Under the pieces are notes generated by a model, which was not told the DNA's origin, did not search any database, and was given only the letters and a program-made list of their open reading frames with translations. Shown piece after piece: positions 14,101 to 57,700 of a stretch of DNA of 64,000 nt. The DNA is taken from NCBI GenBank assembly GCA_963855995.1, contig OY979723.1, positions 10,173,013 through 10,237,012 on the forward strand. Direction: 5' to 3'. Origin of the DNA: Muricea muricata (lineage: Eukaryota > Cnidaria > Anthozoa > Malacalcyonacea > Plexauridae). Made by a program: the position numbers and the translations under genes. Each line of letters begins with the position of its first letter. The first letter of the stretch is position 1.

Positions 14101-17100
14101 TACAGGTTGAAGGTGGAGAAAAATTCCAAACAGATCAAGCAGAAGCTTCGAGGCCTAAGTAATGAATTAAAATATTCCAGATGAATGTTCCTCTAGTTGT
14201 AATGCGACAATGTAAATCCTTAAATCTTAATCCCTATCCACACTTAACTTTTCTCTATCCTCGAGAAATTTAGCATATGTTTGTGTACTTTTAATTCGCG
14301 AACTAATGTTTCGTTCAGGTGGGACACGCAAGGCGACTTCACGACAACACATCCTCTACCTGAAGTCAAAGTCAAATTATTATCAGAGAACACAGGAGTC
14401 CTGGCTTTTGATGACAAGGAACTGGCCAAGGTAGTTTGTCTTCCAACCTACAAGCTCATATTTTCGCCAACCAAATCTTCGCCTACCAAATTTTCGCCAA
14501 TCATTGACAACTTGCAACAGACTTGTTATTGCCAAGCAAATACTTGGATGCGTTCTCATCGCTTGCTCCGACTTGATGACAACAACAATAGGGCCATTTA
14601 TACGAGCGAAAATAGGCCGCGGCTTAAATAAGTCGAGAACGTCTGTATAAACGCGCAATTTCTTTGCGACTAAAATAAGCCGCGGCTAATTTTAGCCCAG
14701 GGTTCGGGCCTCGTCTTAAATTGGCCGCGGCCAATTTTAGGCGGGAAAACCTCGCAAAAACGCTTCGTTCGCGACCAAGGCAAGTCCACAGTAGTTTCGT
14801 GTAGCTTTTTTTCTAACGCGAGCCATTTTCCTTTTTTTGTCATGGTAATGGGTATTTAAAACTTCGGTGACCTCGTTATGGTCTATTTATACGAGTGTTA
14901 TCGTTTTGGGATATCGTAATAAATTTAGTAAAACTGGCGTATAAAAGGCTGTGTTCTCGACTTATTTAAGCCGCGGCCTATTTAAGCCGCGGCCTATTTT
15001 AGCCGCGGCTTATTTTCGCTCGTATAAATGGCCCCAATGTTCCAAAATTGTCAACCGGCTTGATGCAAGTTGTTTCTCAAGTCGTCTTATTCACAAGCTT
15101 GACGCATGTTGTTTTAACAGCTTACAGCAAGTCTGCAATTATCAAGTTGCCTCAAGTCTGATTTTCACAGACTTAATGCAACTTAATGATGAAGCCAACA
15201 GGCTTGAGGCAATTTGATGACAAACTTGCATTGAGCCGGTAAAATCCACAAGCATCAAGTCTACAGCATTTTCGGCTGTGGCAAACGTTAGTTTGACTGT
15301 AATGGTATTAAAGTATAATTTTTTTAGTCAAGCTCATAGTCGTTTTATGCCCTCTTTACTGCAGTTGAGCTGCCATCCATACCCAGGTTTTACTGAGGAT
15401 TCCAGGTGGTATGAAGCTACGCCCGTCAAAGGCTCTGCTAGTGAAAAAATTCAAATAAGAATGAGAGTTAAAATGGATAAACCTCTTAATCTTAAGAAGT
15501 GTGGGTGAGTTACAGAGTGCACGCGTCACGTGCCAGTCTCTGATAAACTTTCAAACGAATTGTAAAAAGGACTTACTGTGATAATGTCGCTCTGCTTTTG
15601 GAGTAATTTCTTGAAGAAAGCATTGATAATTTCGTCGTATACGTAGGCACATGTATTCCAAAGGTCTAAATGTTTGGAAGAGATGGAAAAAGAGATATTA
15701 CGTTCTGCTACAGGTGAGTATCCTTATTCGTTTGTTCTTTAGAAGTCCTTGTCGTTTTACCAAAACATTCAGTGGTGATTTTAGACCTTGCGTACCCCCC
15801 TAGACAAGTATGAAAAGCGATAGTTACATTAACATTGCCTTCTTGTTTAAAGTGTCTAAATACAAAGTCCTTGGACATTTTGTGAAGTTACAGGGTTGAA
15901 ATAAAACAAAGAATACCAGGCCGTATTAGGAATTTTAGCGCTTTAACCTAGTCTGTGCTTTGCTCCACAATTGTGCTTCGGAAAACTTTCATACTTCACT
16001 ATCCTTGAATGCTTCCACTTTAGTGATTAACACCGTCATTTGCAGGTGAGCCAGTACACATTTGCGTTGTGTAGTTACCACGAGAAAAGAGGCGAACCTC
16101 ATGAAATGATCCAGCTCGATGGCTACACTGTGGATTATTCTGAACCACCCTCAGGTATCTTTAGCGATTTTTGTGCAGAAGAGTTAATACAGCAGTTCAT
16201 CTTAAGCGATTTTTGTGCAGAAGAGTTAATACAGCAGTTCATCTTAAGCGATTTTTGTGCAGAAGAATTAATACAGCAGTTCATCTTAAGCGATTTTTGT
16301 GCAGAAGAATTAATACAGCAGTTCATCTTAAGCGATTTTTGTGCAGAAGAGTTAATACAGCAGTTCATCTTAAGCGATTTTTGTGCAGAAGAGTTAATAC
16401 AGCAGTTCATCTTAAGCGATTTTTGTTCAGAAGAATTAATACAGCAGTTCATCTTAAGCGATTTTTGTGCAGAAGAATTAATACAGCAGTTCATCTTAAG
16501 CGATTTTTGTGCAGAAGAGTTAATACAGCAGTTCATCTTAAGCGATTTTTGTGCAGAAGAATTAATACAGCAGTTCATCTTAAGCGATTTTTGTGCAGAA
16601 GAGATAATACAGCAGTTCATCTTAAGCGATTTTTGTGCAGAAGAGTTAATACAGCAGTTCATCTTAAGCGATTTTTGTGCAGAAGAGTTAATACAGCAGT
16701 TCATCTTAAGCGATTTTTGTGCAGAAGAATTAATGCAGCAGTTCATCTTAAGCGATTTTTGTGCAGAAGAGTTAATACAGCAGTTCATCTTAAGCGATTT
16801 TTGTGCAGAAGAATTAATGCAGCAGTTCATCTTAAGCGATTTTTGTGCAGAAGAGTTAATACAGCAGTTCATCTTAAGCGATTTTTGTGCAGAAGAATTA
16901 ATGCAGCAGTTCATCTTAAGCGATTTTTGTGCAGAAGAATTAATGCAGCAGTTCATCTTAAGCGATTTTTGTGCAGAAGAGTTAATACAGCAGTTCATCT
17001 TAAGCGATTTTTGTGCAGAAGAATTAATGCAGCAGTTCATCTTAAGCGATTTTTGTGCAGAAGAGTTAATACAGCAGTTCATCTTAAGCGATTTTTGTGC

Positions 17101-20100
17101 AGAAGAATTAATGCAGCAGTTCATCTTAAGCGATTTTTGTGCAGAAGAGTTAATACAGCAGTTCATCTTAAGCGATTTTTGTGCAGAAGAATTAATGCAG
17201 CAGTTCATCTTAAGCGATTTTTGTGCAGAAGAGTTAATACAGCAGTTCATCTTAAGCGATTTTTGTGCAGAAGAATTAATGCAGCAGTTCATCTTAAGCG
17301 ATTTTTCTGCAGAAGAGTTAATACAGCAGTTCATCTTAAGCGATTTTTGTGCAGAAGAATTAATGCAGCAGTTCATCTTAAGCGATTTTTGTGCAGAAGA
17401 GTTAATACAGCAGTTCATCTTAAGCGATTTTTGTGCAGAAGAGTTAATACAGCAGTTCATCTTAAGCGATTTTTGTGCAGAAGAGTTAATACAGCAGTTC
17501 ATCTTAAGCGATTTTTGTGCAGAAGAGTTAATACAGCAGTTCATCTTAAGCGATTTTTGTGCAGAAGAATTAATACAGCAGTTCATCTTAAGCGATTTTT
17601 GTGCAGAAGAGATAATACAGCAGTTCATCTTAAGCGATTTTTGTGCAGAAGAGTTAATACAGCAGTTCATCTTAAGCGATTTTTGTGCAGAAGAGTTAAT
17701 ACAGCAGTTCATCTTAAGCGATTTTTGTGCAGAAGAATTAATGCAGCAGTTCATCTTAAGCGATTTTTGTGCAGAAGAGTTAATACAGCAGTTCATCTTA
17801 AGCGATTTTTGTGCAGAAGAATTAATGCAGCAGTTCATCTTAAGCGATTTTTGTGCAGAAGAGTTAATACAGCAGTTCATCTTAAGCGATTTTTGTGCAG
17901 AAGAATTAATGCAGCAGTTCATCTTAAGCGATTTTTGTGCAGAAGAATTAATGCAGCAGTTCATCTTAAGCGATTTTTGTGCAGAAGAGTTAATACAGCA
18001 GTTCATCTTAAGCGATTTTTGTGCAGAAGAATTAATGCAGCAGTTCATCTTAAGCGATTTTTGTGCAGAAGAGTTAATACAGCAGTTCATCTTAAGCGAT
18101 TTTTGTGCAGAAGAATTAATGCAGCAGTTCATCTTAAGCGATTTTTGTGCAGAAGAGTTAATACAGCAGTTCATCTTAAGCGATTTTTGTGCAGAAGAAT
18201 TAATGCAGCAGTTCATCTTAAGCGATTTTTGTGCAGAAGAGTTAATACAGCAGTTCATCTTAAGCGATTTTTGTGCAGAAGAATTAATGCAGCAGTTCAT
18301 CTTAAGCGATTTTTCTGCAGAAGAGTTAATACAGCAGTTCATCTTAAGCGATTTTTGTGCAGAAGAATTAATGCAGCAGTTCATCTTAAGCGATTTTTGT
18401 GCAGAAGAGTTAATACAGCAGTTCATCTTAAGCGATTTTTGTGCAGAAGAGTTAATACAGCAGTTCATCTTAAGCGATTTTTGTGCAGAAGAGTTAATAC
18501 AGCAGTTCATCTTAAGCGATTTTTGTGCAGAAGAGTTAATACAGCAGTTCATCTTAAGCGATTTTTGTGCAGAAGAATTAATGCAGCAGTTCATCTTAAG
18601 CGATTTTTGTGCAGAAGAGTTAATACAGCAGTTCATCTTAAGCGATTTTTGTGCAGAAGAATTAATGCAGCAGTTCATCTTAAGCGATTTTTGTGCAGAA
18701 GAGTTAATACAGCAGTTCATCTTAAGCGATTTTTGTGCAGAAGAGTTAATACAGCAGTTCACCTTAAGCGATTTTTGTGCAGAAGAGTTAATACAGTAGG
18801 TCATTTTCAGCGGTTTTCGTGTAAGCGCTATTCATCATTATTCGTCCAAAGCAAGTGCCTAAGGTCTAAACAGAGCAGCTCCCTAGAAATGTACTGTTTC
18901 TTACTGTTTTCAGGGGGGAGGTGAATGCTTCTGTTTAGAACGCTTGCTGAGTGTCGAATCATGACGAATGTCACTGATAATGACCTTCTGTGTAAGCTGA
19001 AAAACATGTCTGGCCACGTTGGGACCTACGACCTTTAATATGCTAGCCCAATGTCCTAGTATGTTAGTCTCTACGTATAGCCTTTAATATAATCGTGTTT
19101 TGTGGAGCATTGGTCGTATTGCAAAGGTCGTGGGTTCGATTATCCGGCATAGTTTTGTGTTTCTGCTACAATTTTTTTTTCCATATTGACCGGATTTCAC
19201 ATGTTTGTGTTTTTTTTTGTTTCTGCAGATGACGAATACGAGGGCGGGAAATATTTTTTTTGCTGTGTGAAAGAGGGCAACAGCGTCATGTTCTCGACCG
19301 ATGACGAGATGGAGAGACAAATGTGGGTGCATAAGATCTCGCAGGCAACGGGACAGTCACACAGGCCTGTGGCACCAAAAACTTTGGAAATTGGAACACC
19401 GAAAACGAACTCGTTGACGAAACTGATGGGAGGTGAGAAAAGTAACCAGCTGTTTCTCGATGAGGATTACAGCAGTTTCGAACGTTGAACTATAAGTGAA
19501 CGGGAACGATGATGAGTCAGTTATATTGGACCATATATCAAATGAAAGCTATTAAAAAGTTGTATCCTTAAACTTTGCCATATTTTGCAGTTGTTTTCTA
19601 TTGTTTCGCAATATCTTTTTTGTCTAAAGTGTTGAATTTTTAATATTTAATATTTAACAATTATTCGCCAAAGGCGAATTGAATATTGGTAAATATTCAT
19701 CGAGACGACGTCGAGGTGAATATTTACCGTAATCACTGAGCCTGAGGCGAATAATTGTTTTAGTATAATTTCTTTAGTAAAATTTACGTGAATAAAGCGA
19801 CTCTCATTGGCGACCATTTTGATAAAATGCCAGCTAGTAAATAATGCCTCAAATTTGCTAGTCAGTCAACCAATCAAAATGCTTGAAAGCTATTATTTAC
19901 TAAAGAAATTATACTAAAACTTTTTAGTTGCTTCAATTTGATGTGTGGTCCGATCTTTAACGTTAATTCGACTCAAAACTCATAAAAACTAACTAAGCTT
20001 TACCAGTTAACTGAACTTTTGTATTGAGTTAGCGTTCCAGTTGTATTACAGTTCACTGTTTCGAGTGATACATGACCACCAACCACAATGCTTGAAGCAA

Positions 20101-23100
20101 TAGTTGTTTTTGACATTTGAGCGCCGTTGCTGGTTTAACTATAGGGCGTGATTTCTCCGCTTTTTGGTCAGATAATTGTTTAGTATGAAATATTTTCGCT
20201 CTGTTAATCCGACTTTGTCATCCGGCGTTTTCACTTATGGCGTTTCTGATGGTAAATTATCGACGGCGCTCGAATTTTAAAAACCAATGTTGATTGTGAT
20301 TGTTGTTTTGCATAGACACAGACCGGGCGAGAAAATTTGGCCTCGACGAAGCGATCCAAGCTGACCCTTGTGAAGTTGACCATCATGTGTTGTTCAAATT
20401 GCTACAGTTTCTCACCCTGGAACATCGTCTGAGTGACACGTATTCTTGCTTGGTAAATACCGCTGATATCGTTGTAGACAGGATAAACTAGCAAAACCGC
20501 GGTTGTAACTACTGATCATCTGATGCATGGCGCTGTGACGGCGCCCTGTCTGCTGCTTTCGACACATATTGTGTCAAAAAACAGGACATTATCAAGTTTG
20601 CAAGAGCTGATTTTCATCTGCAAAATCTTGTGGTCGTACCCGTAGCCATAGTCAAATCTAGAATAGTATCGAGAAAACTCCCATTCAAACTCGTCCCCCC
20701 CCCCCCGTCTATAACTAGTTTTCATACAAGCTCGCACTTCCATTGCTATTTTCCAGGGGTGGTTCTCGCCGGGACAATTGTTTGTTTTGGACGAGTACTG
20801 TGCCAGATACGGAGTGCGTGGATGTTATCGTCATCTGTATTATCTTCTTGATCTGCTTGACAAGGCAGAGTCCGGCATCTTGATAGATCCAACCTTACTA
20901 CATTACAGCTATGCATTTTGTGCTTCGCACGTTCATGGAAATAGGTGAGCTTATTGGTTCATTTCAGAAATGCCACAGACTTGATGCAAGTTGTGGATTT
21001 TACCCGCTTGATGCTAGTTTGTCATCAAATCACATCAAGCTTGTTGTTTTCATTAAGTCTGTAAAAATCAGACTCGATGCAACTTTATATTTTCAGACTT
21101 GCTGCAAGTTGTTGAAACAATTTATGGAACAAACAGCAGCACACATAAGTGTATATCAGCCACCTTAAGCTGTCAAACGGGCCGCCTTAAAAAGGATACT
21201 AAAAGCTAAACCAGCCATCTTAAGTGGCTACCGATCATTCTCGTTCGCTCTCACTATTCTTTCATCTCCATTCTTTAGACCTGATGGTATTGTCACAATC
21301 ACCACATATGAGAGAGAAACATTCGATGAGGTTAAGGAGAGATTGTGGAATTTGCTCACGAATCAGATCACAAACTTTAGGTACATGAGAAATGAATTAT
21401 TGTGAGCGTATTCGGCCTAACATGCCTTACACTTTGTTTTCTTTCGTTCCAGATATTCCTTTCCGTTTGGTCGACCTGAAGGAGCTCTTAAAGCTACATT
21501 ATCTTTGTTTGAAAGGGTGACTAGAAGATTTACTCCTTGCAATAATATCGGCCACTTTTTTTGTATTAAAATGAATTACACGGCATTAAACTAATTCAGT
21601 TTCGCATGACCAGCTCTACCCCCTCCCCCTGCTTCCCCCCCCCCCCCCCACACACACACATACTTGAAGATAATTAATTCACACTGATTCTTACACGCAG
21701 GTGATGATGAAGGATATTTCAACGCCAGTTCCCTCCGATGAATTCCAAGCGGAGATGAGAAAATGTTTAAAACAAGCGGCTCTCGTAAACTACACCAAAG
21801 TGTCAAGTTTTGTGAAAATTGAAGGTGAGTTGGGGAAAGGGGGAGGACTGGTAAATAATCGCGAGAGGAGCTTGGAAGCGGGCAAGTATTCCACATTCAA
21901 AATATTTGAGTATCGCTAGTATATTCTACGAAAAAGTGCAGTATTTATAATGAGATTAACACTGTTGAACTTGTTATACGGACTTCTGTCACAAGATTTC
22001 ATCAAAGCTGTTCACCAGCCACTTTTGAAGATGGCTAATGCACAAAACATAAAATTAGAGGACAGGACTGACTAGTGTTATATATTTTTGAAATGAAGAT
22101 TTTAGCACCCCGGAGACGAATCCAATAGATCGTCTTGATGTGATTTATCGACTGGCTGATTACTGTATCGACCTCCTGCAACAGAACGAAGAACACCACG
22201 GCGAGGTGAGCGCCTTGCCTGTCAAAATCTTCCACTCCAAGATATACACAGTTTATTCAACACAAAACTATAGGATATTTGCGGTCGATCTGAGCTAGCT
22301 TTTCACAGGAAGTTCGTTTGGAAGTTCGGAAGTTCGTTTCATTAGCCCCTAAACTAAAGAAGCCAATGAAATGCTTAGTTTACGAAACGGTTTGCAAATT
22401 CTGAAATGAACTTTGAACTTCGCAACGAAGCTCGGAATGCTACACTGAAAAGTTAGCTGAGATCGACTGTAACGACCTAAACGTTGGAAACAGAACTTCG
22501 ACATTTACGACCACTAACTTCCCGACGAATTTTTTTTTTGTACCTATAATTAAGGTTTGGAAAGAACCTATAGTTTTGTGTGTATTAATTACCCTGCATT
22601 GTACAGCTCAAAACGCCACAGACGTTTTGCTACAAGTTGTGGATTTATACAATTTTGTCATCAAGTTGCATCAAGCATGTTGGCTCCATCAAGTTGCATC
22701 AAGTCTGTGAAAGTCTGACTTTATACAGCTTGATGATTACAGACTTGTTAGAAGTTGTTGAAACAACTGGGTTGCAACAACAAAGTTGCTGTTTGTGGAT
22801 AAAATGTCTTGCATCAAGCTTTTTGTGAGCTGTTGTGTAAGATTTTTTATCATCAAGTGATGCGAACATATCCTGAGATTGGCTTGATGACTGCGAAGTA
22901 ATGGCAACGTACGATTTAGTTCATGTAAATCTAATTTTGTTATTCGCGCAGGCTTTGGAGTGGTTCTCGACACTGATGGTGGAGCACACCGAGCTATTTT
23001 GGTCGTTGTTCACGGTTGATGTAGACGCTGCATTAGACGTACAGCCTCCCGACACCTGGGATAGTTTCTCGTTGTTTCAACTGCTCAACGATTATTTCAA

Positions 23101-26100
23101 CAAAGAACGTGAGTATGATATTTGTGGTGTTGCTCTGATTACGTGGATATGGAAGGAACAGGACTCAGTTTCGAAATATCACATACTCGAACCGATCTGA
23201 CCTTGTAGCTAAGTTGGCAGAGCATTGGGCTAAGTTTACAGTCATAGGTTCGATTTCTAACGTGGTCAGACACATATTCAAGTTCTCCCGCTGTAGACAT
23301 CAACTCCGAGTAACAGTATACTTAAGACACAATGAATATCATGAAAACGTAAACATAGATCTTATCTAGTTCCAGTTCTTTCTGCTTGACTCGCGTTCAT
23401 CGTATTGTTTCTCTTTCAGCTTCCTTACGTAATGGACCAAGTCACATCTACTTTCAAAATAAGTTTGCACCGCTGGTCATCCGTTACGTCGATCTCATGG
23501 AGTCTTCTATTGCTCAGTCCGTGCACAATGGTTTTGAAAAGGAGACCTGGGCACCAGTTGGGTAAGACGTTGAAGTGGTACTGACTACTGAGTACTTGTA
23601 ACGGTTTTAAGGGGGTCCACTACGAAATGATTTCCAAATTTATCAATTTTCAAAATTTGCAGAAGATATTGTTCACAACCTTGTCGAAGCATTTGCAGAA
23701 TTTGAAACATAAAAAAAATTATAAACGGAGAAATTGAGCAAAATGTATATCTTGTTAGGGTAAAACCATGATTTTATCCTGAACAAAAGGGAGCCTTTGA
23801 TTGGCTTTCTTGAGCTTTTGTTGTTCTGTTTCATTGTTTTGTTTAAGTTTTAAATATATGCAAAAGAAACATTAAGCTATTTTCTCTGGCTGCTGGAAAG
23901 GCCAATTTTCCACATTTCAAACACAATAACTCGGCTGATACTCAATATTTAAATATGAAACTTTTTGATCATGTAGCAACATCCTTTCGCTAGAAGATAA
24001 ACATAAAATAATTATTCTTTTTGCTATTACTGATGTCCGTTGTACGAAAAGTAAATAGCGCTATCCAGAAGATAGTCAGTTTTAAAACTTTGTGAGCATG
24101 TTCAGTAACTGGTAGAACCCATATTAAAGTTCGGCATTTTCGCTTCAAAGTCCCTTTTTATCTCCTGCGAGTTCAATATCCCTGGTATCGTTGATTTTTG
24201 TGCCTCTTGTGGCAGTTTAAAAAATCACTATCCGGTGGATAAGCGCTATTCATCTTTTAGCCATAGTTTTCTGTCTTCTACCGTTAATTCGCTTGTTCAG
24301 AAACTCTCTGTCTCTGTTTGATTCCGCTTCAGTGAAGGATGCACTTCGTCTGAAGATATGTTTTATAAACTGAGTGCTTTAAAAGGATTCATTGATGATC
24401 TTCACTGGCCTGAACCAGAGCTTGCTGCTCATCTCAGCCAAAGAATTGAGCTCATGTCTTCCGATATGATAGAAGCTTGCGTCAAGAGGTAATCATATCA
24501 TGATTTGATCTACTTGCATGGATGCACACACAAATTAAGTAACAAGCGATCTATAATTCTTTGTTATTCGTGTTAGGGTTCGCGAGGCCTTTCTCAACTG
24601 GCTAAAACGTGGAAGATACACTACAGAGTATGTGATGCCTCAACAGATCTGTGTTATGTTTAATGTGATTGCGCAAGCCAAAAAACAAGTAAGATTTCGT
24701 TTATGGAACAAGCACTTCAGTATCGATATAAGTAAGCAGAAAGAATCACTGGGAGGCTAAACCCGACCCACCATACGGAAGAACATTCATCAGATTTGAA
24801 AACTTTAGTTTGTTTCTGATCTCTTCCATACTTGTCCACTTGTTCCACTACACTACACTGCACTGAAAAACAAGACAAACACTTCGACAAAAAGAAAGAT
24901 CCTTCTTCTAGGCTAGAAAGAAAGATAAGTTCCAAGCTCATGGCTTCTTGACTAATAACACCGAACTCTATGAGACTTTATTTTATTTACCCAAATGCTG
25001 CGTGAAGAATGGCTTCAAATTCAATGAATTGCATTGAATGCAAACATACCCAATTTTACAAATATCACTTTATAACACGTTAATACTGAAACTGGGCTTT
25101 TTGAATTGTTATGTAATTCTGAATCAGAAGTGGCTCTATTCTTCATAGGTGTGATTATTCAGGGGGGGCATTTTTAATCACATATAGTACGTTATATCAG
25201 GCAATGTACGTTTGAAGGTGAGCAGGCCAGAAGAAGTAAACTGTATTTAGATCGTTTCTGGTTTTTTTTTGTATAACAGGCAATGGATGTGGGTAAGTCA
25301 ACGATGGATTTGAGGTCGCAGAGAAATAAAAGCAGTCCCTCCGAGGTAAGTTGATCAAAATGTTCATCCATGGTTCTATCTTCTGTCTGATTAATTATTT
25401 TACCATAGAGGAAGTGTGTTTGAGTGTGTCTATGTCTCCACTGAAAACTCGCTAGACTAGAGCAGTAATGTTGCTCATTCTATATTTTGTGATGCGAGTC
25501 AATACGCTTTACTGTGGAACTTTGTAACTTAGGCCTTTTTTAAAGGTCATGGCTAAAGGGGATGGACGAGAGGTAGGTTTTCAAGATGGCGGCTGTTTTT
25601 CAAGATTCTTTTAAAAAACGAGAACGAATCAACAACCAGACATTGATAGCATTCCTAAAGCTTACCCTAACCCTAGCCCTAAACCTAACCACAATTTAGG
25701 AATGCTATAAATGTCTGGTTGTTGATTCTTTCTCGTTTTAAGAATCTTCAAAAACAGCCGCCATCTTGAAAACCTACCTCTCGTCCATCCCCTTTAGCCA
25801 TGACCCTGTTTTAAACGTCGAATTTTGCATACATCGAATGCAATTCAAACAATGGGTGATTAGATGACTAACCTCATTATGTATTGTTTGAACCGCATTC
25901 GTTGACGCTCCATTAATCACTTTTTTATACAACCAGCTCCAGGACTTTGTATTTACATATTTTAACAACAACCGCAATGTCAATGCATATTGCCTTTTAA
26001 TATACTCATTCCTTATAACAAAGCTAAGAAACTGACTAAATGTTTATGCTATCTTAAACCTACAGAATTAAAAGCGTTTGTTTAAAAAGTTTTGCCGACA

Positions 26101-30232: not shown

Positions 30233-33200
30233 ATGGCGGACGCAGTGAACTTGCAATATCAAGTTCGGCAAAATAATGAAGAATTACAGGACTTTTTAAA
30301 AGATCTGTACCAGTGGGAAGATGAAGTGCAGGCTAAAGACAAGTTGCTAGTTAATTCTAAAACTCCTGTAGATTCGGTACGCACAGAATTCTTGGTATAA
30401 ATGATGTTTAAATAATGACATTATGTATTTAATATGTACGTATTTTGGCGGTATTTTGTAATGATTTGTATACTTATACTGTACACATTATTCTTGTCTA
30501 AAATTTTGGAAACAAGTTAATTTTAATTCATGTTAGTAGTGAAGTGTTTATGCTAATTGCTCCGTGGAAAATTTCAGCACATATTTTATAAAGCAGGAGT
30601 ATCAGAAATTGTGCAAAGTCTGCACAAATCGCCATGGTGGCCCAAAAATCGGTTGTTTTTAACCTGAAATAAATCAATCTTGTACATAATATCCCTTTTA
30701 CAGCTGTCGGAAAATCGCAGCATTGTTTTTTCTTGTGTGATAGACGGTCTAGCGCGACGTTCGTTTAGTATTACTGGTTTAATATATATAAAATAATACA
30801 TTAAACCAATAATACTAAACGAACGTCACAGTATACAGGCAATGATGATTTTTGGTGATTATACCCACAAGCAAAGTACTTCATTAATTTTCTTCTAAAA
30901 GAATGACTAACAATGACCTATTGACACTGGTGCCGTATGAGAACCAGGCTTAAAGGTAATATTTGATTTGTTTTCTAGTCGCATCCTGTCAGAAATAAAC
31001 CTCGGAAAAAGAAACCAAGCTCCATATTGAGACAAACTTCCAAGACAAAGCCAAGACTAAAGGGCTCTGACTTTCAGGCGTGGGACAAATATGATGTGGT
31101 GAGTATAATATCAGATGGAACCAGGGTTCGTAATATATTAGAATTAATATAGGCACCCTAGTCACAGTAGCGAACGAACAATAGGGCTTCTCACACTATG
31201 TCTGTTGCACTTACACCTTACTGAAAAGGTTTGAAATTGAGCACAGGGGATTTAAAATTTTTTATAGAAAATATATATTACAACATTCAAATCTAGTACT
31301 TGCTGACTTGCTCCTTTCACATGCACCTTTGCCAACCATCTAATACTTGCCAACCGTCCACTATCATCCAACCTTGTTGCAGTGATGCTTGCCATCTGTA
31401 GCACAAGTTTGCAAAGTAATATTGGAAAATTATGTTTAAATATTATGTTGGGGTTTTTTTTACAATCAGGACAAGGCATTGCAAGAAATTGACGATGAAG
31501 AAGACCTGAAAACTCAGTCAACTTCTGACGAGGACGACAGTGAAGATGAGGAAGTTGTTGAGCAGAGGAGATTGCAACAAGCTTTGTTTGAGAAAGAAAA
31601 GGTTATTGCATTCATGATTTTACGCCGCTTCACTTGATATTGTAGAATTTCTTGAGGATAAACTAGGGTTCGTAAGCCCCCTAGAAATCCTGAAAAACCC
31701 AGAATTTTTATTTTTGCTCGGGAAAACCCTTGGAAACCCTGGAATTCTAAATTTATCCCCGGAAAACCAAGGAAAATTGAGAAACCAGGTTGTGTATAGA
31801 AAATACCTTGACTATTTAACATTGCTTCACAAAGAAAAGATTGCCATGAATAAAATGTTTTGCAGCGTATGCAGCGTTTCTTCGGGTATATCTTCTTACG
31901 TTATATTCAGTCACGATCAAGTTCAAATAGCCCTGGAAAACTCCTTGAAAGAGGATGAAAAAAGTCTTGGAAAACCCTGTATTTTCAAAGTTACAAAAGT
32001 GTATGAACCCTGATAAACATGTTTTAATCTCAAGTAGGTAGGAATCATTCGCATATCAACTAAAAAGCTAAAAAAGTTGATCAATTATACATATAGATCC
32101 TCAACATGTTTGTGATTCCCACTTGAGATTAAAACACATTTACCCCCTTGAAATTATTGCATTCATGGGTTGACACAACAGCATTAATGAGTATTAATGG
32201 TAAATTATTCTACAACCTGTGTTTCTGATAAGATTTTTTTGATGGTATGTTTACTTTTGGCAGGGAAATGATCTGTTCAAAGAGGGCAAATATGAGGCAG
32301 CGATTAACCGTTACACTACAGCTATTGGCCTTGATCCATATAATGCTATTTTACCAGCTAATAGAGCTATGGCTTTGATAAAAGTACAAAGGTAACAGCC
32401 CAGGATAATCCTCCCTTGGAAATATTTGTAATTTGTATATTTTTGGGGGGGGGGGGTACTGCTTATGTATGTAGTGCTAACACTGAAAAATCTCTTAAGA
32501 TAACATATTGTACTAACTCTTCTGTGGTAACAGGCTATTTCATTAAGAAATATAAAGAATTGAGGTTAACCTTGGGTCATGATACAAATTTGAGTGATCA
32601 ATAACTACCTTTGGATATATGGTTATATGAATAGTGTAACGTTTCTCTTTTAGATACGGCGCTGCAATACAAGACTGTGATAGTGCTTTAGAGTTGGACA
32701 ACACATATGTAAAAGCATATGCCAGAAGGGCAACAGCCAAACAGTCTCTAGGAAGGCTGAAGGAAGCCCTAGAAGATTATGAACAATTGTTGGTTCTTCA
32801 ACCTGGCAATAGACAAGCTTTAGAAGGCATTGAAAAAATGAAAAAGGTAATGCTAAAGCACAAACAGCAAACTTGTTTGATGCACTCTTTGATCATGCTC
32901 GGCAGATGTTAATTCTACTTTTTTAGATGATAGCTAAGCAGCAAAAGGTTGCTGCTGCTAATGAAATGGAGCGACAGACGGTTGAATTACCAAAAGTATG
33001 TCTAGCAATAATTATATTTTGTTTAGGTTTATTATTACAAGCCATTAACTCTGTATTACATGCTGTTAAAAAACACATTTGTGACAAAAACACAATTAAA
33101 TGAAATAAAAAAGATGACTTGGTGGTTAAAGTTAACAAATTATATTTGATGTTTCTTAGAAGCCGATGAAACGTTATCTGATTGAGGAGATTGGAACAGC

Positions 33201-37520: not shown

Positions 37521-40500
37521 ATGGAAATAGTCTCAGAAGGAAGGTATATATGTAGAACGTTTCTGTGTGTCTTGCATTTGACATTATGCCCTAATTTGGT
37601 TTGAAATTCAATTGATATTTGGCCTGTTCAAATGGGCTTTAATTCTAAAGACAGAAATAACAAAATGTTTGAGAACTTTGTACGTTTCTGCCTAGCTTGG
37701 AGTCCATAAGTAGACCTGCTTCAACAAGCAAAAGATCCTGTAGTCGATCATCTATGGTAAGTGTCAGAAATTTCTCTTACACTACCACAGAATTGTACAT
37801 AACCAGAAAGTCACCTCCTATTTTCATGCATTTTCTGTCCAGAATTAGCATTTTTCTACGTGGCCACGCCCTTATGACCACGCCCATTTGTCGGAGAATC
37901 TCAAGTCTTGCCCCCCCCATCCCTGCCAAAAATTCCTAGTTATGCCACTGGTACACAACCAGAACGTTACTTCCTATTTTCATGCATTTTCTGTCCAGAA
38001 TTAGCATTTTCATAGTTCATAAAAAGGGCAAAGGCTGCTGCTAAAACTGTCTCCAATGGTTGCTAGGCAGAATTTCAGGTAATAATTCTGTGTTTTCAGT
38101 GTGCAAAATTAAATTTTAATCCAAGCCCTTAATCTAATCTAGTCTTCAATCCATCAAAGTTAAAACATGACAAATAAGACACTGGTTAGGATTAGGGTTT
38201 GGGTTAGGGCTTGGATTAGGGCTTGGATTAAGATTCATATGAGAACAACAAATTACTACCAAATTTCGGAAAGGAAACAGCGGGCACCATTTTCCAATTC
38301 TGCTGCCCCACAATGCCATTGTAGACAGTTTCGACACTAGTACTGGATGTACCTTTAAGTCCTCTGCTTGAAGAGGTAGACATGTAAGGATCTGGCAAGA
38401 CTGCAAATAAGCTTTCAACTAGTTATCTTCACACAGGTTCTTCACACACAGTCCACGCCAAGCAAACAGGCTCACGTTAATTGAAATCAGAAACAGGAAA
38501 AAATTTCTTTATTGTTCCTCCAGATTTTACAAAATTTTAAAATATTTTGTCTAACGTCTCGGTATCTTGCACAGAAACCATTTTCAAGTTGATGCAAGTT
38601 GAACATTAGCGATAAATTTTTAAGTCTTTGAAAATGGTTTCTGTAAAAGATACCGAAACGTTAGACAAAATATTTTAAGCTTTTGTAAAATCTTGAAGAA
38701 CAATGAAGAAATAAAATGAATGAAAATCTTTTAAGAGACTCAGAACAGCAGCGATGGTCAGACGTGAATCTAAGCAATGACCCCAATGAAATGTGGGCAA
38801 AATGGAAGAATATGTTAATTAATTGCACCGACAAGCATGGGCCACTCAGAACAAAAAAAGTTAGGAAAAAGAAATCTCCATGGATCACTAGCCAATTAAA
38901 ACAAAGTATGCGTAAGAGAGATTCCCTAAAAAAGAAAGCTAAACAGACTGGTGACCCATTAATTTGGCAACAATATAAAAGCTCACGAAATCGCACGAAT
39001 AATCAAATAAAAAGAGGAAAAAGTCAATATTTTACCGATAATCTCGAGGCTAATAAGAAAAACCCAAAGTCAACTTGGAAACTTATAAATGAATTAAATT
39101 CTCGTAATGCTTTTAATCACAAAACTATATCCAATATCAAAATGGGTGATGAAACTACAGATACACCAAAGGATATAGCCGAAACATTTAATTCTCACTT
39201 TGCCAGTGTGGGTGAAAATTTAGCATCTGAAATACCACCATCTTCCGTAGAGCCTGACGCATATTTTGTGCCAGCTAAAACCACATTTTCAGTGAAATTG
39301 CCTACCCTGAGTGCAGTTTATAAAAAACTAAAAGATATTAACGAAAGGAAAGCTGCAGGCCCTGCAAACTTTTAAAAATTGCAGCTGGAATAGTTGTTAA
39401 CGCTAACTCAAATATTTAATAAGATTATAAGCACAAGCATATTCCCAACAGATTGGAAGCTAGCGAAAGTTACTCCAATCTTTAAGAAAGCTGGTAAAAA
39501 ACCGGCTATCGGCCAATATCTGTTATCTCAGTAGTTGCAAAGATTTTTGAAAAGTTGATATTTGAGCAGATATATGAGCATCTGAACAACAACAATTTAA
39601 TATCTGCGTCCCCTCAATCTGGTTTTCGAACATTGCATAGTTCACTAACAGCACTAATCGAAGCCGTGGGCAATTGGTCAATCAATATAGATAATGGCCT
39701 TCTTAACGGAGTAATTTTTATCGATCTTAAAAAGGCATTTGATACTATTGATCACGCCATTCTTCTACGGAAGTTACAAATTTATGGTGTTGATCAAAAC
39801 GGTATTAAATTTTTTGAATCATACCTAAGCAATCGCAGCAAAAGATGTTGTGTTAATGATGAGTTATCAGAAGCTCTCTCGATAACCTGTGGGGTACCAC
39901 AAGGTAGTAACTTGGGACCTTTATTGTTTTTAATGATCTGCCCAATTGTCTCAACAGAGCTTCCCCAAGAATGTTTGCTGATGATACTAATATTAGCATC
40001 GCAGCAAATTCTGTTATGGAGCTTGAGCTATTAATTAACTCCGAACTGAAAAATCTCCATCACTGGCTAGTGACGAATAGGCCTAGTCTAAACATTGCTA
40101 AAACGGAACTTATGATAATCGGATCTCGTCAACGATTACTTGTGCACAGCAATGAGCATATAAACATAGAGATAGACGGAGTAGCTATAAAAAAAGTTAA
40201 CGACACAAAATTCTTAGGATTACAAATCGATGAGCATCTTACATAGGCACGACATGTCGAAAATATTTTTAAAAAGATAGCATCAGCTATTGGAGCTCTT
40301 AAACGGGTACGCCAATTTATAGATACAAATACTGCCCTAAAAAAATTACGGAGCATTAATTCAACCATATTTTGATTATTGTAGTTCAGTTTGGGACGGT
40401 TTAAATATCACATTAGATAACAAATTGCAAAATAGGGCAGCGAGGATCATCACTGAATCTCGATATCATGCTAATACGAGCGATCTTTTTAGTAGACTTG

Positions 40501-43500
40501 GCTGGGACAACTTTTCAATACGTGGGAAAAAGCTTAAAGCTATACTAATGTTTAAAACAATTAACGAATTAACTCCCACTTATCTGCATGATTTGTTTAA
40601 ATCCCGCAGCACCGGATACAATTTGAGAAACTCCGAACACAGTTTGTATGTGCCAAAACCTCGAACTAACTACGGCAAACGAAGTTTTAGTTACAGTGGC
40701 GCAATGTTGTGGAATGAGTTGCCTTAAAGTGTACGAGCAGTATGCTCTCTTAGTCAATTCAAAAGAGAAATTGACACACTATTTTCTGTATGAAACGGAC
40801 TCCTGCGGCAATCAGTATAGTCTTGTAAATGTAGCATACAGTATATTGTAAATGTACATTTTCTTTTTATATTCAGTCTTAAAGTATAAGTAGTTATATA
40901 TGTTAGTTAATTGTTATTGTAAATGTAATGTGGTATCATACTGAAGATTTACCGTGCTTAGATAAAGTTTTTGATTGATTGATTGATTGAAATTTGGTAA
41001 ATTGTACTTCTAAAATGCACTGGAATATAGCTGTTCAATAAAATTGTGTTTAAAAATTAAATCGTTTGAAACATGCAAATCAGGGTGATTCTGTATCAGT
41101 ATATAAAGCTATTAATTGAACCTGGTTTTCTTTTGAATTTTGCTCAATTGCTCGTCGATTTCTTTAAAATAAATTTTACAAAGCTATGGTTCCACAGACC
41201 CACCCTTATCGTTGTAACTCATATGTCCAGCCTATTCCAAAATTTGATTACACTTTCACATTATCTTGATTTAGACATCAGTTTCCAGTTCCGTTCAGCA
41301 CTCTTTGGATATTTTACCACCTGAAGGTAGGATTCTAAACTGTATTATATATGACATGAAATTTTTTCCTAGTTGGAAAGATCTCCTAAAACTGTAATCT
41401 TCTAATTTCATTCTAACTTGAGATACTCAGATGGCTTGTTCCACAAAAGATCCCCCAGAGGAAAATGATAAATACCTCTCCCAATCTCGTAACATCCTGT
41501 ACAAATTTAAGACAAGACACTCTTTACACGACCCCCCCCCCCCTCTCTCAACCACGGAAATGTCCTTTGTAGCTGACCTATCGATCATTTATGGAATGAC
41601 CCAAATTAATTTTCCACTAGCTTTGTCTGTGGTAGCTGTGTTCATTGTCCCCAGATTACATCAATATCTTGTAAAATTTTACACACATTGCTAAATCAAT
41701 TTGTCCAAGTTGAAATGTTGAAATCTTCGAACGATCACGATGTACTCTGACTTGCATTTAATCTCCATATTGTTGTGCTTTTATATACCAGCAATGACAA
41801 TATAGCATTAACCTCTCAATACTAATAACCTGTGTCGAATCACGTGATAGTTGATCGTTTCTAATTATGCTAATATATTCTAAGATATTTTAAGTGTTTC
41901 GCACAACCGGAGAAAGTACTTCATTGTAATCTACACCTTAAGTTCTCGAATATTCTCGTGTTCATTCATCATCTTTCTATATTGCATCAATATCATGTAA
42001 AATTTTACCCGCATCACCGAACCAGCTAGTCCTGATGGAAAAGCTAAGTTTGTGCCAGTGAACTTATACTTCAGAGAGTTTGCAAGTGTTGACGCTTGGT
42101 TTTAACTTTCTGGCACTTTGTTATCTCTGCCTGAATTTTTGAAAATTTGCAATGTTTGATGAAATCACTTAAAACTTTGCAAAAATGATTCAATCCGTCT
42201 TCTTATATGAAAAAACTTGGGTTGGAGGCTTCAGCACATACCATAGCGTCGCTCTAGAGTCTGCGTCATTTCACCCATATGCTCTCCACTGGCTTCTTCT
42301 GTGGTATCTGTTTTCACTCGTTATCTTTCCATATTGCATCAATTTTACCTGAATCTAGTGGCGAAGCTAGGTGAAAAACTAGGTCATGTCGGAGTTCTGG
42401 AAATGCATTATAGTTATGTTTCAGCTTGCCCATGATTTTACCCATTTGGCCTCCCAATGGCTCTTTTTATGTGCTACATGTCTTTATTCAGAACCTTTGC
42501 ATTTTGCATCGAAATCAGTTGAATTTTAGCACGCATCACTGTACCACTGGTGTCTTTGGTATAAACTAGTATTGAACTTGTCTTGTTATCTTTGGACAAG
42601 CTTATTAGGCGATACCTCTTGCTGGAACTTTTTTCTTCATTGTTAATTGTTCAAGAATTGTACCTGAAATTTCAAAAGTGTGCAATTTGTGACGGAATTC
42701 ATTGAAACTTGGTGAAAATGACCCAATGGCGCATTGTTTGTGAAAAAACTTAGTTCGGAGTTCTGGAAATGCATTATAGTTATGTTTCAGCTTCGCCATG
42801 ATTTTTGCCCATTGGCCTACCAATGGCTCTTTCTATGTGCTACATGTCTTGATTCAGAACCTTTTGCATCGAAATCAGTTGAATTTTTGCACGCATCGCT
42901 GTAGCACTTGTGTCTTTGGTATAAACTAACTTTGGACTTGTCTCGTTATGTTTGGAAAAGCTTATTAGGAGATACCTCTTGTTGTAACTTTTTTCTTCAT
43001 TGTTAATTGTTCAAGAATTGTACCTGAAATTTCAAAAGTGTGCAATTTGTGACGGAATTCATTGAAACTTGGTGAAAATGACCAAATGATGCATTGTTTT
43101 TGAAAAAACTTAGTTCGGAGTTCTGGAAATGCATTATAGTTGTGTTTCAACTTGCCCATTATTTTACCCATTTTCCTCCCAATGGCTCTTTCTATGTGCT
43201 ACATGTCTTGATTCAGAACCTTTGCATTTTGCATCGAAATCAGTTGAATTTTTCCACGCATCACTGTATCGCTGGTCTCTTTGGTATAAACTAACTTTGG
43301 GCTTGTCTTGTTGTTTTTGGAAAAGCTTATTGGGAGATACCTCTTACATCACTGTACCACTGGTCTCTTAAGTATAAACTAACTTTGGACTTGTCTCGTT
43401 ATATTTGGATAACCTTAGTGGAAGATACCTCTTGTTGTAACTTTTTTCCTTTTTGTTAATTGTTCCAGAATTGTACCTGAAATTTTGAAAAAGTGCAATT

Positions 43501-46500: not shown

Positions 46501-49500
46501 TTTCGCTATTTGTGTGTTGCATTTGTAGAGAGAGAAAGAAGTTAAACAACAACGGCTTGAGCAAGAACGTTTGTGGCGGGAAGAACTTGACTTGTTGGAA
46601 AAAAATCGCGATGCTGGTCTTGGCAAACCTGTCGACCTTGGCCCTGCGCATGTGCTGGCTCTAGGGGCACCCAATGAAACAGGTATGAAGATAGATTAAC
46701 AGAAGATGGTTTAGACAGTTATGGACTGATGTGTTTGACCATAGGCGGCCCAATTCAGTGTGTAGTTTCATGTAGAGATCAGTAGCGAGCGGTAGCGTAT
46801 TGTTTTACATATATAATATACATAAGGTTGGCATCTAAATTTAACCTGACGAACATATGACTTTTGTTAAACACAAAATACATCGCTCGTGGAATTATTT
46901 TCAAAACCATTCCGTTTATCATTTTAAGAAGGCAAAGAAGACTGTGTTTCAGAAGATTCTCCCCCTGTCACGCCGTTGTTTGCTACACAACCCTTGGTAG
47001 ATGAAAAAGAAGTACTACGAAGACAGAAACATCAGGAAGAAAGCTGCTTTGATACTCGTGGTGAGATTAAAGGTATGTCTTTTATTATTGCTTCGCCATT
47101 TAAAGTCTTTTAATACTTATGGTTGCCATTCTGTTGTTTCAATTTAACCTTCTGGACTAACCAGAGCGTGTTTTGTCCATTTTCGAGGCGATGATAACGG
47201 TATTTCGACTCGTGGGAACAAAAATAGAGCAAGTGGAAGCAAACATAAAACAGTTCATTCAGAGACTACTGAGGAAGAAATGAAGAAGAATAGCAAGAAG
47301 AATAAGAAAGAGAGGAAAGTGAAAAAGAAAGATTTTATCAAGAGAAATATTTTGGTATGTTAGCTTGTCTTGTTGCATTGGGAAGAATGATAGGAAATGG
47401 TAAAAAGGTGAAGGAAAAAAAAAGAAAGTAGTTAAGGCCTATCCACAGGATGCGATTTGTCGCATACAATTCTTACTTTGGTGAATAGAAACGAGCGCTG
47501 ATGTCAGATTTTTACTCGTTCGCTGATGGCGAAATTTGAAATCTGACGTTTTTTTACGCGTGTTTACTCGATCACATATTCAGTGGCGAAGCCAGCCCGA
47601 CATTCGGTCATGCAAATGCAAATTTTTCTGTGTTTATAGACTGTATAAGGAATCAATTTCTAAAGAAATGAAGAATAATAATGATTTAAATTTGCATAGC
47701 ATGACCAAATTGTCGGGCTGGCTTCACTACTGCACATATACCAAGTAAGAATCGTATGCGACAAATCGTATCGTGTAGATAGGCCTTTAGCGAAAAAATG
47801 AAGTGAAGGCTGGGGGAAGGGAAAAACAAAGGAAGAGAGGTGGAATGGTAGATCGAAAGAGAAAAAGAAAGTAAGAAAGAAGATAACAGGGATAAGAAAT
47901 GAAAAAGAAATAAAGGAATTGTACGCAGCCAAAAAGGGACAACTTGCAGCAAGTTTGCTACCGGCTTTTTACCTGGCAGTCATCAAATCGATATCTGGAT
48001 GCGTTCGCATTGCTTGCTCTGGCTTGATGATAACAAATCTGCTGCAAGTTGTTAACAAGCTTCATACAAGTTAATTGTCAAGACTTTTTTATCTACAAGC
48101 TTGATGCAAGTTGCTTTAGCAACTTGAGTAAAATATCAAGTCGTATCAAATCTGATTTTCACAGACTTGATGTAATTTGATGAAGCCAACATGCTTGATG
48201 CAACTTGATGATAAACTTGCGGTAAGCCGGTAAAATCCACAACTTACATCAAGTCTGTGGCGTTACTGGCTGTTTAGGGAGGATGGGAGGAGTGAAAGAG
48301 ATTGAAGGAATCATTGGAGTTGTGGAAAGTAAAAGTGAAGAAGATGGATAGGGAAATGAATGAATGAAACAAAGGGATTAAGCGAACAAAGAGATTAAGC
48401 GAACAAAGAGAGAAAAAGTGGGCAATATTTTCCTATTTCAGCTGGCAGCTGACGCAAGTAACGTGGTTGCCATGACAGAGGAAGAGAAAAAACGCTTAGA
48501 AGAAATCTTGTCAGATCTTGGAGATCTGATGGAGGAGGTGGGTTGTGTTGTGTGATGTGATGTGATGTGATGTGATGTGATGTGATGTGATGTGATGTGA
48601 TGTGATGTGATGTGATGTGATGTGATGTGATGTGATGTGATGTGATGTGATGTGATGTGATGTGATGTGATGTGATGTGATGTGATGTGATGTGATGTGA
48701 TGTGATGTGATGTGATGTGATGTGATGTGATGTGATGTGATGTGATGTGATGTGATGTGATGTTGTCAGTGTTGTGCTGTGTGGTGTAGTGCGGTGTTGT
48801 CAGTGTTGTGTTGTATTGTCAATGTTGTACTGTGGTATCGTGTTGTCAATTTCTTGGTGTGCTGTGTGTCCTGTTGTGTTGTCTGTTATGGTGTTGTTTT
48901 GTGTTGTCAATGTTGTGTTGTGCTCCGTGGTGTTGTAGTGTTGTGCTGTGTTGTATTGTATTGTATTGCAGCGTACTGTTGTGCTGTGCTGTGTTGAGTT
49001 GTGTTGTGTTGTGTTTTTGCGGTTCCCAAATCATACAATTTCTCTTTAGCCTGTTGATAAAGATTCTTTGGTCTTATACGGAAATGGTTTCGTACCAAGC
49101 CAGGACGAGGTCAAGCAGTTGGCGGACATTGACTTGTGAGTGAACGTTTTACTAAGTTTTAGTCAAAAGCGAACAGGAGTTAACGATGTGTATTTGTGAG
49201 TGTTCTGTCTCCTGAAACGAGAACAAAAGTCTGATGAGAGTTGATAAAAGTTCACAAGCGGGAGTTTGTATGAGACTTTTCTCAATCTTCTTGTAATGAG
49301 AGTTGACAAGTGAGAGTTTTTATGTCATGTCCCGGAAAACGAAAACAAGAGTTGCGAGAGTTTTTATGAGAGTCTTGTGTCCTAGTCAAGAGAGGTGCTG
49401 ACAGTTGATCACTTAATCTTCATGTTTCGGGCCAACCAGGACTAAAGCATGCAGTCCAATGAACAAGTGAATGAATTGTATGACAATTGACGAAGTGTAA

Positions 49501-54734: not shown

Positions 54735-57700
54735 CTACGAAGGACTCGCCTTGTGACAAAAACAAATCTCTCTTAGTAATGGATGTGTCGTCCTGATACA
54801 ATCTGACTGATCGTTGTACGCGTTCACTCTGCTCAACTGCTGGTTCACCTTCGGAATACCGCTGATCAATTGCACTGTAGATTCATAGAGTCCGTTATTC
54901 GGCGATGTCTCCAACTGAAGCTGATACATGCATCCACCTAGGCGGCAGAAAATAATGAACAAATGACGCCCAAGTATACAGTGTGTCACAGAAAAAATGT
55001 CAGAAAAAAATCGAATATTATTATGTTGTCTAGCATTGCTGTTAATTTGAAAAACCTTCATCAACGCATTACAGAAATATTGTCTTTTGATTTAACGCAT
55101 GAACTTCTCAATTACCAATCAAAATGCCAGGGTTGGAAAAAATATTTTCCTTTCTGGGACCATAGATCCGATATAAAAATATTTCTGCAAACTGAAATTG
55201 CTTGTGCAAAAAAAACAACAATCAGTTTTAGCCGCTATTTAGCCAAATAAAATTAATTTTTGATAATCATTCGAAAATGTTTTATGCAGTTATATTAGCT
55301 CTCGATCTCTCATGATCAAGCTGTCTAATTATATAAGAGATGTTCAGATGATTTTGTTTGATGTTTCCAATTCAGAATTTCATCATGTAAATTTTCTCCT
55401 TACATTGCACTAGCAGAAACTTTCTGCTTTCAACTGATGCAGAGACTAGTACAGTACAATGTAGAATATTGTCAGGAAACTTGTGTACAAATCCATTTTT
55501 TATCAAAATTTGTTTCGCCTAAAATGTTTTATAAATGTGAACTTGAAACATTTTCTGGGAACCCCAAAATTTTCTGAGACCAATGGTCCCGTGGTCCGAT
55601 ACATTTTCCACCCCTGCAAAATTCAGCAGCCAACCTGTGATTGCGGCCAAATGAAAATCAATGTTTAATCCTCATTCGACACCTGCACCATTCTCAGTAG
55701 TGAATTGAGCACAAGCCATGTTGGTACAAAAAGAAATAGCTGCATTTTAAGGGTAACTTTTTCCAAAATGGAATTCTTGATCTGCAGAGTTTATGGTGGG
55801 ATCCTTCGATCAATATTTACCTTTCAAAACCTTAGTCATAACATAACTTCTGTCCTCATAAAGGCCTTCCTCTTCGTCACCTTTAGACGTTATCAGAAGC
55901 GCCGACACAACTCGCTTTAGCTGTAGTTTGGCACATTTCGCATCGACGCCATTCTCAGTCAGTCTCTCGTTCATCATTTCCACAACAGCTTGTGCACTAT
56001 TTTGGACGTCTTCGTTATCCACCTGCAAGTAAAAAAAATACGGGATCACACTATAAAAGTTTCTGAGCGCAAGTCAGAAGCCGGTGACAGCACTATTCAC
56101 CTGACTGCCACAGAAAAGTGAAGTTTAATATGGGTTTTACCAGTTACTGGACATGTTTGAGAAAATCACTACCGGTGGATAGCGCTATTAAGGCCTGTTC
56201 AAACGAAGCCAACATGTTGGTCCAACATCACCCATCATTGTTGGATGCAACATGTTGGTCTCGTTTGAACACCACGTTGGAAGATGTAGCCTTAATTTTA
56301 AGCTTGGTTAAAATTTCGTCCGACATCATGCAACATTGTTGGGCCAACAATGTTGCATAATGTTGGCTTCGTTTGAACAGGCCTTTATTTAACCTTTCGT
56401 GCAACCAGTAAAGCTGTGCAACAAGTTTTCCAGGTAAATTTAAATCGCCGATTTAGTTGCCTAAAAGATTTCTCAGAAATCCTTCAAAACGTTGAATTTA
56501 CTCGGTTTTACGCAACATTCCTACAACAGAAACTTTGCTACCTTAACCTCGCTCCAGTCGACACACGGGCAGAAGTGAAAGGGTATCCCAGCCTGAGCGC
56601 AGGTTCTCCATCCTATGTCAGTGAACATGCTTCTTCCGTAAGGCAGACCTTCGGGTTTCTTGGGATACGATAACAGATGTTGAAAAGTCGCGTGAAGGTC
56701 GAACGGAGTCGTCAAAACCTCGGTGTTCCTTTTCAAATTCTGGTATAGTTCCGGATACGTTTTCTCAAACCATGGTGGAAACGTCATGGATAGGAATGGC
56801 AGTCTTTCTTCCATGCGACCCAATATGGTCTCGCGGACAAAACCATAGCGGAGACCGTGATCGCCGAACAGTACCAAAATGGTGTCGTTGAAAAATCCCC
56901 GTTCCTTGAAATACTTTAGGAAACTTAACAATTCGTCTTCGACTAATGATATAAAATTAAAATCTTCGTGATGACAAAAGTCGGAATTCATATGAAAACC
57001 GAATTTTAACTGTTTAGGGTATGCGTTCAAGAAACTCTTAATGCTCTTTAGGCTAACATTGTATATCGCCTCAGTACCCAGACAATGGCCTTTGATGTAG
57101 CTAACACCGCTGATCATTTTTTGGTACATCGACGTGAGTTTTTCCAATGCTGCGTACCAGATTGGTAGTATGTAATGGTCTATTGGTGGTTTACAGAAGC
57201 CTTCAAGGCGGGTAGTGATCGCTCCGTTGAACACTTCGTCCTCGTTGTAATATGTCGCGTAGCCATGAGCCCCCATGTCCTTGAATATCCATGGCCAGCG
57301 GTCTAGACATTGCGCAGAAAACCTCCTATATTAAGTAAATAGAGGATGAAGAGGGATATCAAGGAATGCTGAGCGTAATTTGAAATTGCATTGCTGAAGG
57401 CGCGAGTCATCGAGAGGGTTCCGAGGGATGGACCCCAGGAAATTTTGAAAGCTGCAATGTTGGAAATAGGATTTCCTGTGATTTGGACACCGAATTTGAC
57501 AAATATGGAATCGTCTAGTTAAAATCTGGAATCCAGTGGTAGGACTCCAGAATCAACCAGTTAAAATCCGGAATTCAGTGGTATGAATCAAGAGTCAACT
57601 AGTTAAAATCCGGAATTCAATGACATAAATCCAGAATCCACGAGGGAAAATCTGGAATTCATTGGTAAGAATTGAGAATCCAGCAGTAAAAATCTGGAAT

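Follow-up and report, generated by a model that had tools for sequence, protein, structure and literature searches.

The stretch of DNA analysed here, referred to as the window, comprises 64,000 nucleotides of the anthozoan Muricea muricata (assembly GCA_963855995.1, contig OY979723.1, positions 10,173,013 to 10,237,012 of the forward strand). Within it lies a minisatellite with a 42-bp unit, located in an intron of a gene that, judged from its predicted protein, is the animal neurosecretion gene CADPS/CAPS. Sequence comparison identifies the repeat unit as the terminus of a transposon resembling a miniature inverted-repeat transposable element (MITE), a copy of which still flanks the array. 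The first-pass annotation of the window had correctly described a 42-bp minisatellite of about 63 units in a CADPS intron, but it missed this main point.

The host gene was assigned by joining the exons on both sides of the intron. The translation matched human CAPS1 over the PH domain (chains 7vs3, E 3.5e-44, and 1wi1, E 8.6e-43) as well as the Pfam family PH, and at the exon junction the predicted protein is two residues longer than human CAPS1. The array thus falls within the PH-domain coding region of CADPS and is wholly intronic. Splice sites of the gene were scored with matrices built from 15-18 hand-placed sites; the one at 22106 had a score of -6.39, and its placement may be wrong. The features of the host gene are:

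16046..16154, forward strand: CADPS exon of the PH domain, ending in CCACCCTCAG, phase 1
16155..19228, forward strand: CADPS intron of 3,074 bp, GT...AG, of which the array makes up 2,665 bp (86.7%)
16155..16162, forward strand: 5' splice site CAG/GTATCTTT (the slash marks the exon-intron border), donor score 5.05, above 6 of the 18 other donors of the gene
19229..19377, forward strand: next CADPS exon, the 3' end given being only the end of the homologous stretch

Tandem Repeats Finder (TRF) reported a period of 42 bp with 63.5 head-to-tail copies and 96% matches at 16157-18821, a unit size within the 10-100 bp of minisatellites. The array itself was therefore placed rightly by the first-pass annotation, whereas the edges given there (16163 and 18798) had to be moved outwards to these positions. 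Read in register from 16157, the 63 units fall into eight types; the consensus or plain unit accounts for 31 of them and a unit with the two changes G27A and A33G for another 20. Six variants occur across units 1-62 (A6T, G17C, G19T, G27A, T28A and A33G), and the units differ from each other by 2.7% on average. A search of the window with the core AGCGATTTTTGTGCAGAAGA at up to 3 mismatches returned 63 matches, all within the array, compared with 0.02 expected in shuffled sequence. The array and the adjoining element consist of:

16157..18821, forward strand: 42-bp minisatellite, 63.5 copies, the unit being the 42-bp terminus of the inverted repeat of the MITE-like element
16157..16175, forward strand: truncated left unit of 19 bp in the register of the element, abutting the splice donor
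18780..18821, forward strand: left terminus of the resident element, doubling as the last unit of the array
18780..18998, forward strand: resident MITE-like element as aligned to the family probe, with the left arm at 18780-18877 and the right arm (inverted, with a gap) at 18917-18998

The connection between unit and transposon rests on several comparisons. Written from CAGAAGAG, the unit aligned without gaps to 42 bp of the element arm, starting two bases inside the terminal CACAG, with 37 of 42 bases identical. The alignment of the unit to the terminal-repeat probe scored 64, while the maximum in 2,000 shuffles was 30.5. The array is hence a transposon-derived tandem repeat, its unit being homologous to part of a dispersed element. 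Unit position 9 was of particular value: it is C in the array units and in the resident terminus but in none of 41 other termini (40 T, 1 A), which links the array to this very copy of the element. The last unit (18780-18821) retains the family bases C6, C16 and G40, where the inner units have A, T and T. Inner units and resident terminus differ at 6 of 42 positions, and each has accordingly changed since they parted.

The element next to the array was recognised by its alignment to the family. Its right arm scored 99 against a maximum of 46 in 300 shuffles, and a full-length element query recovered the CADPS locus at 18780-18968 (E 8.5e-16, 72% identity). A second dispersed repeat follows directly at 18994-19058. 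It accounts for 27 of the 57 genome matches of the right flank (query positions 189-259, about 77-84% identity), and some of these matches stand in rows about 250 bp apart (e.g. C1:76253192-76254000 and C1:52102781-52103737).

The family was surveyed in the single available 453-Mb assembly of 74 contigs, with only the best candidates of each search being scored (40 of 98 for the right flank, 40 of 219 for the full-length element and all 11 for the tandem terminus). The right-flank query (18800-19400) gave one full match and 56 others; 29 matches lay in its first 196 bases at 70-84% identity, several of them on both strands at the same place. With the full-length element 71 matches were obtained, most copies being about 70-82% identical to the query, and the 35 loci that were read individually (designated by L-numbers) represented 28 distinct places, so that the element occurs in at least 28 further places of the genome. 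The element is palindromic and about 240 bp long in L017 (counted by eye). Inverted arms were found in L017 (55 nt at 84%) and in L014 (76 nt at 84%). The family thus has the characters of a MITE: a short non-coding element with inverted terminal repeats and many copies. Within the window a further terminus occurs as a lone minus-strand copy at 32486-32524, with CTTAAG as in the inner units of the array and not the commoner CTTCAG. A query of three tandem termini returned 38 matches, 28 of which (125-126 bp) lay in CADPS; the other 10 covered no more than 61 query bases, and no second array of this terminus was present among the 11 candidate places examined. Duplicated ends do occur elsewhere. 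One of the 28 distinct places carries a terminal duplication of 43 bp x 2.0 at 88% (L048:1461-1545, TRF), and at L083:211-245 the end is repeated after 21 bp. These two are perhaps stalled seeds of the same process.

On this evidence the array very probably goes back to the duplication of a transposon terminus, with out-of-register exchange, slippage or repair copying as the presumed means of amplification. A number of observations weigh against such an origin. With mismatches to the resident terminus at 6 of 42 bases and to the family probe at 5 of 42, the unit points to a founder that either had already diverged or came partly from another copy. Single termini with CTTAAG exist as well (32486-32524 in the window, L042 and L079). 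The array begins mid-unit at the donor, which requires an added deletion or another event there. A simple inverted-repeat finder detected no pairs in the window copy, whose arms are visible only by alignment to the probe, and the flanks compared by eye revealed no consistent target-site duplication, which leaves the MITE label incomplete. Since the genome searches scored only the best candidates, the absence of other arrays is not proven.

The internal order of the units carries a record of repeated copying. Written as letters, it reads 1oaaootaoadooBoBoBBoBoBoBoBcBooooadooBoBoBBoBoBoBoBcBooooBoBooz and includes a block of 24 units, oadooBoBoBBoBoBoBoBcBooo, twice in succession and in two copies only:

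16478..17574, forward strand: exact match at an offset of 1008 bp, first copy (24-unit block plus overlap)
17486..18582, forward strand: exact match at an offset of 1008 bp, second copy
16703..17374, forward strand: zone of 84-bp dimers (plain and G27A+A33G units, mostly alternating), which contains a 5-unit duplication and recurs 1008 bp downstream

At the offset of 1008 bp the longest exact match measured 1,097 bp, while none of the other 43 whole-unit offsets tested exceeded 319 bp. The rare variants agree with this offset: T28A at 16601 and 17609 (units 11 and 35) and G17C at about 17304 and 18312 (units 28 and 52) are both 1008 bp apart, which bears out the repeated order of variants described in the first-pass annotation. 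At a lag of 24 units, 25 consecutive units agree, against a maximum of 14 in 2,000 shuffles of the unit order. Markov simulations of order 1, 2 and 3 reached 25 matching units in 0, 5 and 12 of 1000 runs each; orders 2 and 3 nearly memorise the unit order and are therefore a hard control. With no differences over 1,097 bp at lag 24, as opposed to the mean of 2.7% between units, the block constitutes a higher-order repeat. On a smaller scale the 5-unit duplication BoBoB comprises 245 identical bp at an offset of 210 bp. Copying in the array took place at no fewer than three levels, namely 84-bp dimers, a 5-unit block and a 24-unit block. The earlier proposal of at least two levels, unit growth followed by copying of 24 units, is supported by these data and extended by the two smaller steps. 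It had also been suggested that high identity implies recent or ongoing homogenisation. The block duplication does appear recent, but a divergence of 2.7% between units does not by itself show that homogenisation is ongoing.

The following course of events would account for these observations. A palindromic MITE-like element would have been present in the CADPS intron before the array grew. Beside its intact end, the terminal 42 bp of the left inverted repeat, counted from two bases inside CACAG, would then have been duplicated in tandem. Further multiplication of the copies presumably took place by slippage, repair copying or out-of-register exchange. Each of these mechanisms would give the observed pattern, and they are not separable. 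Single units and dimers probably spread first, followed by the 5-unit block and last, in one step, by the 24-unit block. The relative ages agree with this order. The window copy is only 72% identical to the fullest copy and the element is thus probably old; the units are 5 of 42 bases away from the terminus consensus, 2.7% from each other and without any difference between the blocks, which places the element first and the amplification of units next. The complete identity over 1,097 bp makes the duplication of the 24-unit block the youngest step, unless it is an assembly error. In the human haploid minisatellite MSY1, length mutants are described as changing by 1-3 units (PMC2599865), and a step of 24 units is large by that yardstick.

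Such an error, in which mis-joined reads in a shorter but real array would have produced the 24-unit duplication, is an unlikely explanation. The two copies are identical over their 1,097 bp, and their offset is an exact multiple of the unit, which is what an overlap error would produce; tandem repeats are mentioned as a known source of assembly errors (PMC6868369). On the other side, the assembly comprises 453 Mb in 74 contigs and the right flank matches it once over its full length, which suggests reads long enough to bridge 2.7 kb. An ordinary minisatellite devoid of any transposon link has nothing in its favour beyond the tandem structure and leaves unexplained the 37 of 42 identical bases, the adjoining element and the shared C9; it is refuted at the sequence level and was given almost no credence. 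Equally little weight was given to a coding function, by which read-through would add about 63 copies of a 14-residue repeat to the protein. The frame of the upstream exon is indeed open from 16031 to 18799. However, another forward frame and one reverse frame are open too, and three of six is unremarkable for a 42-bp unit. Besides, the PH-domain sequence is properly taken up again by the exon at 19229, and G27A is the only silent change among the six variants. The coding reading was rejected, and the read-through matches to the Pfam families MASE12 and Galaxin_repeat (0 stretches passing alone) were taken as repeat noise.

The proximity to the splice donor raises separate questions. Intron bases from +3 onwards are those of the first, truncated unit, which makes the 5' splice site in part transposon sequence. 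By chance, such closeness would be expected for about 3 in 410 non-array intron positions, a post hoc hand estimate that was not used as proof. Either the GT of the donor may come from the element, or an old donor may have been fused to the array by a deletion between matching letters. The former, in which the donor GT is the GT of the terminal AAGGTCATC and the transposon end took over or created the present exon-intron border, is on the whole improbable, though somewhat less so than the assembly error. CTCAG/GTATCTTTAGCG can be aligned by eye with the terminus AGAAG/GTCATCTTCAGCG at the cost of one missing base, a gap that the automatic alignment did not reproduce; the unit sequence from +3 and the two extra residues at the junction are in line with this origin. 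Against it, the alignable stretch at the left edge is short, a chance AG/GT or a microhomology at a deletion would look alike, and two additional junction residues are ordinary between distant animals.

The units also carry splice-like signals of their own. In the plain unit an acceptor-like site, TTTTTGTGCAG/AA, scored 5.85, above 10 of the 16 leave-one-out acceptor scores of the gene, and nearly every unit possesses such a site of medium strength. Sites of about 5.85 or better amounted to 20.5 per kb in the CADPS intron in comparison to 2.0 per kb in 33 kb of control stretches. All 63 acceptor positions of the array read in frame to a stop codon in the last unit:

18797..18805, forward strand: in-frame TAG (18797-18799) and donor-like site TAG/GTCATT, score 5.88

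This donor-like site at 18800 has a higher score than the true donor (5.05). Within the plain unit no GT scored above 1.97, which is below all 18 scored donors. That the units had been purged of donors by selection was considered and rejected, as 32% of shuffled units were equally low.

Effects of the array on splicing are possible as far as these signals go. A regulatory element in which 63 alternative acceptors share the donor-like site of the last unit, and a poison exon ending in TAG lowers the amount of CADPS protein, would make use of all these features, and a minisatellite of worms is described as over-represented near multiple alternative splicing (PMC4039745). Nevertheless, we regard this function as very unlikely. 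About 7% of random 42-bp windows or shuffled units contain an equally good acceptor, comparable pseudo-exon pairs occur at 1.3 per kb in controls, the intron's own acceptor (before 19229) is the strongest of the 16 scored (11.25), and the matrices derive from so few hand-placed sites. An extended version, in which the terminus took over the CADPS 5' splice site and its 63-fold expansion made the intron a rheostat by which splicing can be tuned, with dozens of in-frame decoy acceptors, one stop codon and an array length, changing in 24-unit steps, that sets CADPS output, appears more improbable still. We infer that the spliceosome passes over the array, because no donor in the plain unit is usable and the intron ends in a very strong true acceptor; the array would then be spliced out and be mostly neutral.

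Further searches gave no indication of another role or of remnants. A 252-nt piece of the array (16199-16450) was predicted to fold into RNA structures no better than those of shuffled sequences (z +1.49; 188 of 200 shuffles at least as stable). Scanning the whole window for non-coding RNAs at gathering thresholds produced only a marginal tRNA match at 23199-23268 (29.6 bits, threshold 29). In prokaryote and viral collections, a 19-mer of the unit was present in four bacterial contigs, which is about the number due to chance (about two by a hand estimate), and in no viral contig. Decayed units were sought at 18836-19000, at 18900-19228 and in the upstream exon, with no signal over 500 shuffles each.

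Other repeats and genes were noted in the window. An FSIP1-like gene (joined exons matching Pfam FSIP1, E 3.5e-11) has a 512-bp intron at 48538-49049 that consists largely of a perfect (TGTGA)42 from intron base +14, with related decayed repeats to about 49015; it is a second array beside a splice donor in the window. Another 42-bp tandem repeat with a different unit and 4.4 copies lies at 57517-57700 between two exon-like frames of a minus-strand DUF229 gene. A 360-bp tandem repeat (2.6 copies at 90%) is present at 42389-43345. The open frames at 38707-40727 resemble by eye a broken non-LTR (long terminal repeat) reverse transcriptase, and the piece 38707-39372 matched no Pfam family.

The CADPS array displays seed and product together at one locus, from the transposon end through the unit and the dimer to the 5-unit and 24-unit levels, and divergence provides the relative ages of the steps. 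In addition, a potentially fast-changing array directly touches the splice donor of a conserved gene; owing to this contact, effects of array length on splicing are testable with ordinary RNA data.

Among open-access papers, none was found that joins CADPS with minisatellites. A long intronic minisatellite in a calcium-signalling gene is likewise known from CACNA1C, which contains the 30-bp variable number tandem repeat TRACT. It differs in being human, in its size of 3-30+ kb and in its demonstrated length variation; the passages of that paper used here mention neither a transposon source nor contact with a splice site (PMC13131567). Minisatellites touching exon-intron borders, with reported effects on splicing, are described from the human genome, where in recent paralogs they average four units of 30 bp, compared with about 63 wholly intronic units in CADPS (PMC2812944). 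Introners, elements that form introns, possess terminal inverted repeats (TIRs) in 72 of 177 families that could be judged (PMC9860276). While both splice sites of an introner come from the element, in CADPS only the donor side touches transposon sequence, and the acceptor at 19228 is 230 bp past the recognisable end of the element at 18998.

Closer counterparts exist among arrays born from transposon ends. The TIR-220 repeats of the foldback transposon Tetris in Drosophila virilis are thought to derive from a duplicated piece of the inverted repeat and form arrays of up to 66 copies, and two alleles differ by the duplication of one repeat (PMC4079207). As described there, these repeats measure 220 bp, lie within the inverted repeat and occur in many arrays of the genome, unlike the 42 bp from the very end of the element in the one array found here, in an intron at the donor. 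TIRs are named as a prevalent source of monomers in a review (PMC9659126), which includes the MITE-derived tandem repeats Xstir, from an inverted repeat in Xenopus, and miDNA4. Both share a MITE as monomer source with the CADPS array, but they are genomic satellites, whereas the latter is a minisatellite found at one locus (PMC9659126). Arrays of this origin are thus already known as a class, of which the CADPS intron, with its single array, resident source, nested copying and contact to the donor, is a good example rather than a new kind.

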